Shown: one piece after another, positions 45,073 to 61,987 of the stretch | How the letters are laid out: every line of letters starts with the position of its first letter | Numbering within the stretch: the first letter of the stretch is position 1 | Source: Actinospica acidithermotolerans | GTDB lineage: Bacteria > Actinomycetota > Actinomycetes > Streptomycetales > Catenulisporaceae | Assembly: GCF_018139625.1 (NCBI RefSeq) | Contig: NZ_JAGSOH010000001.1 | Coordinates: forward strand, 124,001-188,000 | Reading direction: 5' to 3' | DNA length: 64,000 nt | Notes under the pieces: generated by a model | Databases searched by the model: none | What the model saw: only the letters and a program-made list of their open reading frames with translations | Told to the model about the DNA's origin: nothing | Translations under genes and position numbers: made by a program

Positions 45073-45197
45073 TGTGGACAACGAGTTGAACAGCAGGCCC
45101 GGGATGGCTACCGTCGTGTGGTCGCCCCGGGTCGGCCCGTGGCTCGTTCAGGGAATCCGCAGCGGGATCCACAAGTTGTCCACAGCACTTGTGGAAA
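45073..45197. promoter_or_regulatory. DnaA boxes in the rpmH-dnaA spacer
   Basis: The 364-bp gap 44917-45280 holds TGTGGACAA (45073-45081), TTGTCCACA (45176-45184) and TGTGGAAAA (45189-45197), the first two being exact actinobacterial consensus. Together with a GATCCACAA near 45167, they probably autoregulate dnaA. Nothing else is apparent in this gap. Confidence 0.8.
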
Positions 45198-45280
45198 ACT
45201 TGGGCACGCACTCCTGCCGAGTGCCGCCGGGCACGCTGAGCCCGGCGCAGCCGGACCTCTGACACCCCGATTCACGATGA

Positions 45281-47032: not shown

Positions 47033-47659
47033 TCTCCACCCTGAGTACACGTCAGGTTCATCTGTCAAATCGCGATTCAAAATCCTGGTTTTCCACCGGG
47101 ATTATCCACAGCCCCCGCCGGGTACACAGGACAAAGAGCCTGGTCCCGTCGGGGGCTGTGTCGGTTGATGTGGAAACAGCGCCATCCCAATGCACAGCCT
47201 GTGGATACTTGTGGACAACTTCTGTGCATAAGCTACCGGGACGTTGGACGAGTCACCGATTCGAGTGAGAATCTTATCCCCAGGCTTCAAGATTTTTTTG
47301 GGGACAAGCTGTGCACAAACTGTGGACGTCTGTGGACGCGGTGTGGACAACGCGCGTTTCTCCACAGGGGAGTTCGAGTTCTCCCCAGGTTCTCCCCAGG
47401 GCCTGTGTACAAAAATTTCCGCGCCGACCTGCGGAAAGGGCGCTTTTCCACAGTATCCACACCCCCTACTACTACTACTCAAGAGATAACTCCATCTAGG
47501 CAAAAAGCTCGTGGGCTGCGCACAATTCTGTGGATAACCTCGCCGAGAGGTCTGACGTCCAATCTCCCTCTCTCCGAAAAAGCGCTATCCTCATCCGAGG
47601 CAGTCGACGGTCGGGGTGATGAGAATCCTGATCATGTCCGGACAGTGGAGGCGAGACCG
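47033..47659. other. oriC: Origin of chromosomal replication (oriC)
   Basis: The 627-bp dnaA-dnaN gap is relatively AT-rich and contains about a dozen DnaA boxes. Plain or near consensus copies are TTATCCACA 47102-47110, TGTGGAAAC 47169-47177, TGTGGATAC 47200-47208, TGTGGACAA 47210-47218, TGTGCACAA 47310-47318, TGTGGACGT 47321-47329, TGTGGACGC 47331-47339, TGTGGACAA 47342-47350, TTCTCCACA 47358-47366, TTTTCCACA 47444-47452, GTATCCACA 47453-47461 and TGTGGATAA 47529-47537. Boxes left of 47350 mainly point one way (TGTGG on the plus strand), and those at 47358-47461 point the other. AT-rich patches lie at ~47270-47303 and ~47405-47420. Genes on both sides point away from here. Confidence 0.93.
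47444..47480 (+). other. DnaA-trio-like basal unwinding element in oriC
   Basis: Two abutting DnaA boxes (TTTTCCACA 47444-47452 and GTATCCACA 47453-47461) are followed, after a C-run, by CTA x4 (47466-47477) and CTC. This is the same orientation and layout as the Bacillus subtilis DnaA-trio element, in which DnaA moves from the boxes onto single-stranded 3'-GAT repeats. The sequence match is direct; the function is inferred. Confidence 0.65.
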
Positions 47660-60361: not shown

Positions 60362-61345
60362 GTGAGCAGCAGCACACCCTCGGACGAGCGGCCGCCGGCG
60401 GCGGTCGGTGAGACCCGCGAGCAACGGCCCGCGGGCGCTCCGGTGTGCTTCCGGCACCCGGATCGGGAGACCTATCTGCGCTGCCACCGCTGCGAGCGGT
60501 CCATCTGCACGGACTGCATGGTGCCCGCGGCCGTCGGACACCAGTGCCCCGAGTGCGTGCGCGGCGCGGCGAAGACAGTGCGCCAGGCGCGCACCGTCGC
60601 GGGCGGCCGGGTGCATTCCCGGCAGGGCGTGGTCACGATCGGGATCATCGCCGTCTGCGTCGTGATGTACGGCCTGCAGCAGCTGATCGGCGAGGCCTTC
60701 ACCACCCGGATGGAGCTGCTGGGGATAGCGGGCTCCTCGTCCGCCACGCCGAGCGCGGTCAACATAGGGGTGGCCAACGGCGAGTGGTACCGACTGCTGA
60801 CGTCGATGTTCGTGCACGAGAGCCCGGCCCACATCGGGCTCAACATGCTCTCGCTGTGGTGGATCGGCGTGCCGGTGGAGACCCGGCTCGGCCGGCTGCG
60901 CTACCTGCTGACCTATCTGGTCTGCGGGATCGGCGCCTCGGCCGTCTCCTTCGCCTTCATGGGGCGCTACGACGCCTCGCTCGGCGCCTCCGGCGCCATC
61001 TTCGGCCTGCTCGGCGTCCTCGCGGTGATGGCCTACCGCGAGAAGCTGGACATGCGCCCGATCCTGTTCGTGATCGTCATCAATCTGGCCTACAGCTTCG
61101 GGGTGGCCGGGATCGACTGGCACGCGCACCTCGGCGGCCTCGGCTGCGGGCTGCTGATGGGGCTCGCCTTCGCCTACGCGCCGCGGCCCGAGCGCGCGAC
61201 CGCCTGGTACCGCAATCCGCAGAACCTGGTGCCGCTCGGCGCCGGGGCCGCGCTGCTCGTACTCACCGTCGTGCTCGTCGGCGTGCACTCGAGCACGCTG
61301 CAGAACTCGGCGCTCGCCGCCTCGCTGACCGCGATCATCCGCTGA
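60362..61345 (+). CDS. Rhomboid family intramembrane serine protease
   Basis: A 327-residue membrane protease. The N-terminus carries a B-box-like zinc finger (CFRHPDRETYLRCHRCERSICTDCM...CPEC) and then six to seven helices. The catalytic dyad is Ser210 (GASGAIFG) and His254 or His256 (IDWHAHLGG). HxGLNM appears as HIGLNM in the second helix. Substrates are unknown. Actinobacterial rhomboids of this type have the same zinc finger. The start is GTG 60362. Confidence 0.93.
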   Translation: MSSSTPSDERPPAAVGETREQRPAGAPVCFRHPDRETYLRCHRCERSICTDCMVPAAVGHQCPECVRGAAKTVRQARTVAGGRVHSRQGVVTIGIIAVCVVMYGLQQLIGEAFTTRMELLGIAGSSSATPSAVNIGVANGEWYRLLTSMFVHESPAHIGLNMLSLWWIGVPVETRLGRLRYLLTYLVCGIGASAVSFAFMGRYDASLGASGAIFGLLGVLAVMAYREKLDMRPILFVIVINLAYSFGVAGIDWHAHLGGLGCGLLMGLAFAYAPRPERATAWYRNPQNLVPLGAGAALLVLTVVLVGVHSSTLQNSALAASLTAIIR

Positions 61346-61394: not shown

Positions 61395-61523
61395 TTGTCC
61401 ACAGGCTTCGAGTTATCCACAGATGCGCCGCCGACTCCTCCACAGGTTTTCCACAGTGTGGAAAAGGGCCCCGAGTCTGTGGATAACCTGGTCGTCGGAT
61501 CTCCTGTCGTCGGCTGTGGATAA
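61395..61523. promoter_or_regulatory. DnaA-box cluster between rhomboid gene and crgA
   Basis: In the convergent 185-bp gap 61346-61530 there are TTGTCCACA (61395-61403), TTATCCACA (61413-61421), TTTTCCACA (61447-61455), TGTGGAAAA (61457-61465), TGTGGATAA (61478-61486) and TGTGGATAA (61515-61523). Four are exact consensus, and a degenerate TCCTCCACA is at 61436-61444. The middle pair forms a 19-bp palindrome. The gap is convergent, so promoter control is unlikely. Confidence 0.85.
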
Positions 61524-61530
61524 AACGCGA

Positions 61531-61785
61531 TCAGCGCCAGCGCGTGGAGATCGCGAAGCCGCCCGCGATGAATCCGAAGCCGATCACGACGTTCCACGCG
61601 CCCAGCGCGTCGACCCAGCTGATGCTCGAGGCCAGGTAGTACAGCACCATCCAGCCCAGGCCGATGACGAAGAACGCGACCATGAACCGAGGCACCCAGG
61701 CCGAGGACTCCAGCTTGATCTTCTGCGGCTTCGGCTCGGTCGGCGGCGTGTACGCCACCTTGTCCCGGGTCTTCGACTTCGGCAC
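61531..61785 (-). CDS. crgA: Cell division protein CrgA
   Basis: CrgA (84 residues) is the small actinobacterial membrane protein that coordinates septation and binds FtsZ and other divisome parts. The N-terminus VPKSKTRDKVAYTPP and two helices (WVPRFMVAFFVIGLGWMVLYYL and WNVVIGFGFIAGGFAIST) match the family. I chose the GTG at 61783-61785, which gives the usual 84 residues with GGAGAG upstream; a GTG four codons earlier is open. Confidence 0.94.
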   Translation of the reverse strand: MPKSKTRDKVAYTPPTEPKPQKIKLESSAWVPRFMVAFFVIGLGWMVLYYLASSISWVDALGAWNVVIGFGFIAGGFAISTRWR

Positions 61786-61978: not shown

Positions 61979-61987
61979 TTATCCACA
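61979..61987. promoter_or_regulatory. DnaA box upstream of the small membrane protein gene
   Basis: TTATCCACA, exact consensus, 34 bp before the GTG at 62021. It is an outlier of the nearby cluster and could influence this promoter. The rest of the 235-bp gap (61786-62020) shows no feature. Confidence 0.6.

Follow-up and report, generated by a model that had tools for sequence, protein, structure and literature searches.

An oriC-proximal DnaA-box cluster directly 3' of crgA in Actinospica, a putative local copy of a DnaA-regulating locus of the class Actinomycetes

The box cluster and the genes around it

The window, by which we mean the whole 64,000-nucleotide stretch of Actinospica acidithermotolerans DNA analysed, harbours six DnaA boxes in the 185-bp gap that separates crgA from a convergent gene for a rhomboid-family protease (Table 1). 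The cluster is intergenic and lies directly 3' of crgA: its box nearest that gene ends at 61523, and the crgA stop is at 61531. An earlier reading made from the letters of the window without database searches (hereafter called the sequence-only reading) had reported six good boxes, four of them exact, within 129 bp, a 19-bp back-to-back pair, two flanking genes that both end at the gap and a distance of ~14 kb to oriC. Our scan reproduced the box positions exactly, and the pair, the gene ends and the distance to the box array that follows dnaA were likewise confirmed. The four exact boxes match TTRTCCACA and the remaining two are TTTTCCACA. Read along the + strand, all six aim at the centre of the cluster.

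Table 1. Features of the window (positions in the window; a dot marks features with no strand)
Feature	Position	Strand	Basis or remark
DnaA-box cluster, six boxes, polarity +,+,+ then -,-,-	61395..61523	.	motif scan
Exact DnaA box TTGTCCACA	61395..61403	+	motif scan
Exact DnaA box TTATCCACA	61413..61421	+	motif scan
Weak DnaA-like box TCCTCCACA, seventh box	61436..61444	+	2 mismatches
Near-exact DnaA box TTTTCCACA	61447-61455	+	
Near-exact DnaA box TTTTCCACA	61457-61465	-	
Exact DnaA box TTATCCACA	61478..61486	-	motif scan
Exact DnaA box TTATCCACA	61515..61523	-	motif scan
19-bp back-to-back pair TTTTCCACA-G-TGTGGAAAA, element core	61447..61465	.	1-bp gap; general form TTNTCCMCANTGKGGANAA
crgA, 88 aa	61531..61797	-	CrgA family PF06781; adjoins element in most genomes
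Rhomboid-family protease gene, convergent neighbour	60362..61345	+	homologues after crgA in ~92/145 loci
dnaA	45281..47032	+	
oriC-like dnaA-dnaN intergenic DnaA-box array	47102..47537	.	mixed orientation

Exact TTRTCCACA boxes number 34 in the whole genome, which comprises 7.89 Mb on 422 contigs, with 10 matches to a control motif. At this genome-wide rate, the Poisson probability of four exact boxes in 129 bp is ~4e-15 per stretch of that length, and the cluster of the crgA gap is the densest group of exact boxes in the 7.9-Mb genome. Same-strand exact pairs no more than 30 bp apart were found in the crgA gap only, and converging TTNTCCACA/TGTGGANAA pairs within the same distance only there and upstream of dnaA. 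Directly upstream of dnaA, at 45176-45198, TTGTCCACA and TGTGGAAAA are separated by 5 bp, a gap equal to that between boxes I and II of DARS; this arrangement probably corresponds to dnaA autoregulation. The oriC-like region carries a DnaA-trio-like sequence, TACTACTACTACT, at 47467-47491 (GTAGTAGTAGTA on the other strand), which resembles an unwinding element. An extra exact box, TTATCCACA, is located upstream of crgA, at 61979-61987, within the 5' part of a small ORF.

Similar clusters do not occur at random positions in the genome. A single looser cluster was identified, also inward-facing, with a similar architecture and also between convergent genes, in the ppc-purU gap (G000:C244:47030-47180; L242:2131-2280). 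It consists of TTGTCCACG-A-TGGGGATAA-ATCC-TGTGGATAA and outer boxes. It is kept in Actinospica and partially in Actinocrinis, and no cluster after purU was found in Catenulispora or Streptomyces; we therefore rejected ppc-purU as a second class-wide site. In a complete genome of the same genus (G149), the ppc-purU cluster is ~407 kb from dnaA and the crgA site 17 kb. The same genome has same-strand exact pairs 17-23 bp apart at G149:C1:5045201, 5300284 and 5653316, all less than 0.9 Mb from oriC and on one side of it only. In the genome of the window, we also noted three DnaA boxes on one strand, upstream of a gene for a YgjP/SprT-type-looking metallopeptidase (G000:C15:16652-16726; L241:2153-2227).

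Distribution and form of the element across the class

The element is not private to the window: sites of this kind adjoin crgA in most sampled families of the class. In a sample of 144 genomes from 35 families, in which related genomes are counted separately, exact TTNTCCACA boxes reach a density of 0.80 per 100 bp in the first 100-bp bin past the crgA stop, falling to 0.35 in the second and 0.11 in the third; bins ahead of the stop or farther downstream hold 0-0.014. Conservation beside crgA, i.e. 0.80 versus ~0.01 boxes per 100 bp, thus extends across the class and upholds the reading of these boxes as a genuine conserved locus outside oriC. In 110 of the 144 genomes, one or more exact boxes lie within 250 bp of the crgA stop; clear boxes after crgA were not found in families f4, f28 and f33 or in several genomes of f22 and f23. 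Searches of 146 whole genomes with the degenerate form of the 19-bp pair, TTNTCCMCANTGKGGANAA, yielded 30 sites in 30 genomes, all of them at most 200 bp from the crgA stop, and no site with the reversed control. The crgA gene itself stays close to dnaA, at a median distance of 24 kb and within 150 kb in 93 of 94 cases.

Polarity is best conserved near the window's own lineage. Our order-level sample comprises 80 crgA loci, nearly all of them from Streptomycetales and Catenulisporales, with typically three to six TTNTCCACA boxes per locus of up to 20 kb, nearly all located within a few hundred bp 3' of crgA. Inward polarity was found in all 78 Streptomycetales and Catenulisporales loci with at least two exact boxes. 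Outside these orders it is common, not universal: among the 60 genomes of the class sample with at least two exact boxes, 35 show inward and 2 outward polarity, the rest being one-sided or mixed. The inner converging boxes of the order-level loci are offset by 10, 23, 30-33 or 43-44 bp, values that approximate whole helical turns, which is suggestive only as the loci are related.

The gap of the inner pair is 1 bp in some families and 21-35 bp in Streptomycetaceae, and most families have only one to three strong boxes at the site. Given this variation in box number and spacing, a single fixed DnaA complex cannot be assumed for the whole class. In the family of the window, the back-to-back pair with a 1-bp gap is present in 13 of 13 readable crgA loci, that of the window included. 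It takes the forms TTTTCCACA-C-TGTGGAAAA in Actinospica, TTATCCACA-G-TGTGGAAAA in Actinocrinis and TTATCCCCA-G-TGTGGATAA in Catenulispora, with some genera assigned through matching named loci or through relatedness. Every sampled Streptomycetaceae crgA locus carries boxes; in the 64 loci of this family, the boxes are near-invariant, as are the blocks GGAAAAGGTC-GA-GATCTGTGGATAAC and GTTGACGCCGG, and the rest of the gap is unconserved. Another near-invariant block of these loci, GTTGACGCCGGTGTGACCG, is found ~10 bp past the inner minus box and is perhaps a relic of the palindrome described below.

In most families outside the window's order, a palindrome, (C/T)ACACNNGTGT(A/G), is located between crgA and the boxes (e.g. 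at L155, L107 and L132). It is absent from the window, from the window's family and from Streptomycetaceae, and perhaps it is a common rather than a defining component of the crgA-proximal DnaA site. We considered the form ATTACACNNGTGTAAT as the motif of a possible genome-wide regulon; no sampled genome has more than one exact site, and approximately half of these sites are at the crgA locus. Three of the others are at the ancestral locus, from which crgA is missing, and the remainder are in unrelated places. HigA2 binds the same palindrome in Mycobacterium tuberculosis (PMC11205783), where it has been described as two DnaA-box-like sequences (PMC7738170).

Comparison with known DnaA-binding loci

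The closest described counterpart is mycobacterial. In M. tuberculosis, IDAP-seq with recombinant DnaA identified five top regions, including Rv0010c-Rv0011c, in which Rv0011c is crgA, and ChIP-seq in M. smegmatis showed that the homologues of the same five regions are bound by DnaA in vivo (Hicks et al. 2020, PMC7738170). Clinical M. tuberculosis isolates harbour convergent, recurrent mutations within the palindrome, which precedes Rv0010c by 65 bp in an intergenic gap of 155 bp; mutants of the site have longer cells and phenocopy dnaA mutants, in which the expression of both flanking genes is unchanged (PMC7738170). According to the authors, the site has no evident equivalent in other species (PMC7738170). 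In our f5/g5 loci, the palindrome is at approximately +80 after crgA, in agreement with the position published for the Rv0010c gap, and on this basis f5 is presumably the mycobacterial family. The window element shares with the mycobacterial site, ~13 kb from oriC, its intergenic position directly after the crgA stop, its box or box-like cluster and its proximity to oriC. The two differ in that the palindrome ATCACACNNGTGTGAT is retained in mycobacterial loci, where strong boxes are few, whereas the window lacks ATCACACNNGTGTGAT and has the 19-bp pair, six strong boxes and a different downstream gene.

A second counterpart is found in Streptomyces. Smulczyk-Krawczyszyn et al. 2006 (J Bacteriol 188:6184) reportedly described three DnaA-box clusters in S. 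coelicolor, H69, H24 and D78, of which D78, not H69, is said to be the one with a published phenotype. Initiation at the wrong time is repressed in this species by a cluster analogous to datA (PMC5742627). The H69 cluster shares its name with a cosmid. Cosmid H69 contains SCO3857 (PMC3878966), three genes from crgA, which is SCO3854 (PMC4416010). Given this proximity to crgA and the boxes carried by all sampled Streptomycetaceae loci, the oriC-proximal H69 cluster is very probably the orthologous locus, an identity that we infer. The Streptomyces precedent cited by the sequence-only reading would then be more than an analogy. Streptomyces loci differ from the window in having mostly three or four strong boxes, the inner of which are 21-35 bp apart.

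We also compared the element with the Escherichia coli loci that act on DnaA outside oriC: the DnaA-reactivating sequences DARS1 and DARS2, which promote the release of ADP from DnaA, and datA, which stimulates the hydrolysis of DnaA-ATP and represses extra initiations. In the E. coli genome sequence, DARS1 reads TTATCCACT-5 bp-TGTGGATAA-3 bp-TGTGTATTA and DARS2 TTATCCCAG-5 bp-TGTGGATAA-3 bp-GGTGTAAGA, and box I facing boxes II and III reportedly lets DnaA molecules contact each other head to head (PMC5742627). The core of the window has the same polarity, with boxes oriented + - - at 61447, 61457 and 61478, so that the first is opposite to the second and third. In contrast, its I-II and II-III gaps are 1 and 12 bp, versus 5 and 3 bp in both DARS1 and DARS2, and it has more boxes. 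No IHF- or Fis-type sites were identified in the crgA element in this comparison. Strict DARS membership was rejected on the I-II spacing; as the DARS polarity is present and the gap is 1 bp, the element can, by analogy, act like a DARS without being one. With datA, which lowers initiation in E. coli, it shares the status of an intergenic, non-oriC DnaA-box locus. However, the two exact boxes of datA face the same way, ~160 bp apart, around an IHF site, and this layout was not seen at the crgA element, the site of the actinobacterial IHF-like protein being too ill-defined to scan.

INDEPENDENCE from the neighbouring genes, and possible function

The rhomboid gene is missing from ~53 of the 145 crgA loci, as counted by hand from our table, in which a few contigs end early, and ~36 of these loci keep boxes. 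We thus rejected a tie of the element to the rhomboid gene, as it persists beside other neighbours. Three small genomes (G145, G038 and G118; L305-L307) present the converse situation. Their crgA is across oriC, without boxes after it, and the palindrome followed by box-like sequences is found at 10.7 kb, beside ppiA and the rhomboid gene and ~10 kb from dnaA. The boxes of these genomes are weak, with one TGTGGATAA in L307 and box-like sequences in the other two. Genome G088 (L311) shows, at that same distance, the ancestral arrangement ppiA-rhomboid-element-crgA, and the element was not found in the related genomes G021, G078 and G127 within the stretch examined. Since the element outlives either neighbour, its partner would be oriC or DnaA and not crgA, a tie to which is weakened by the genomes that keep the element after crgA has left.

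An element with a defined sequence and geometry, conserved across the class, close to oriC and persisting without either neighbour is best explained, in our view, as the local copy of an ancient, free-standing, oriC-proximal DnaA-regulating locus of the class Actinomycetes, which probably acts in trans. This DnaA-binding locus would have been kept near oriC class-wide, usually directly 3' of crgA. On its inward-facing boxes, DnaA molecules would meet head to head, centred on the 19-bp pair, and form a complex of fixed geometry, and the job of the locus would be to set the amount or the nucleotide state of DnaA available to oriC, in the manner of datA or DARS, rather than to control the transcription of crgA or of the rhomboid gene. 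The binding of DnaA in Actinospica, the head-to-head complex, the trans mode and the direction of the effect, i.e. activation or inactivation of DnaA, are features that we infer. The sequence-only reading had argued from the convergent genes against transcription control and for DnaA titration or a datA/DARS-like role; a trans role of this kind does fit best, but convergent placement is not general, given the ~53 loci without the convergent rhomboid gene.

Plain titration, in which the boxes soak up DnaA by number and geometry is irrelevant, is in our estimation unlikely, though it comes closest among the alternatives. It would agree with the extra boxes added in the genus Actinospica, with the second cluster at ppc-purU and with the repression of untimely initiation by the datA-analogous S. 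coelicolor cluster (PMC5742627). However, the one to three strong boxes of most families are too few to titrate much, and the conserved traits are the position, the inward polarity and, in many families, a pair with a 1-bp gap present once per genome.

Less plausible still is that DnaA bound 3' of crgA controls this gene in cis, by altering transcript ends, antisense transcription or terminator read-through, and thereby links septation to replication, a coupling that the sequence-only reading had suggested as possible from the adjacency of the divisome gene. All 30 matches to the 19-bp pair adjoin crgA, and the element follows crgA in ~36 of the ~53 loci without a rhomboid neighbour. Yet L305-L307 have the element beside the rhomboid gene near dnaA without crgA at the locus, and the expression of Rv0011c is the same in M. 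tuberculosis dnaA mutants (PMC7738170). Survival of the site after the loss of either neighbour, crgA included, makes cis control of crgA improbable, and the proposed coupling found no support.

The sequence-only reading had also offered a second DnaA assembly site, and an accessory origin that opens DNA would have a box density rivalling that of oriC in its favour. This is very improbable. The cluster has a 58% GC content and no AT-rich unwinding region, its least GC-rich 25-mer having 11 G+C, and no DnaA-trio-like repeat was found beside its boxes, whereas oriC carries one at 47467. Furthermore, its boxes point inward and those of E. coli oriC outward (PMC5742627). We consequently rejected a second origin. 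Finally, although the core is a perfect inverted repeat between convergent genes, a terminator or RNA hairpin is hardly credible and was rejected on non-compensatory variation. The variable paired positions are complementary no more often than in shuffled sequences (43% vs 47% and 57% vs 50%; 30 genomes), which fits the degeneracy of DnaA boxes and not an RNA hairpin, and no U-tract was found after the repeat.

To our knowledge, little is known of the control of DnaA outside oriC in actinomycetes. Returning to the preferred reading of a trans-acting DnaA-regulating locus, a bolder version, which we put forward tentatively and consider rather doubtful, is that all Actinomycetes inherited one oriC-proximal DnaA-remodelling locus whose head-to-head complex switches the nucleotide state of DnaA. 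If true, the locus would fill the role of E. coli DARS and datA with a geometry of its own, and the clinically selected site of M. tuberculosis and the H69 cluster of S. coelicolor would be two descendants of a single locus. As it is common to Streptomyces, Catenulispora and Actinospica and to about 30 further families, its function is testable in harmless model organisms, with a defined geometry to mutate. It looks like an ancient control point for the initiation of replication.
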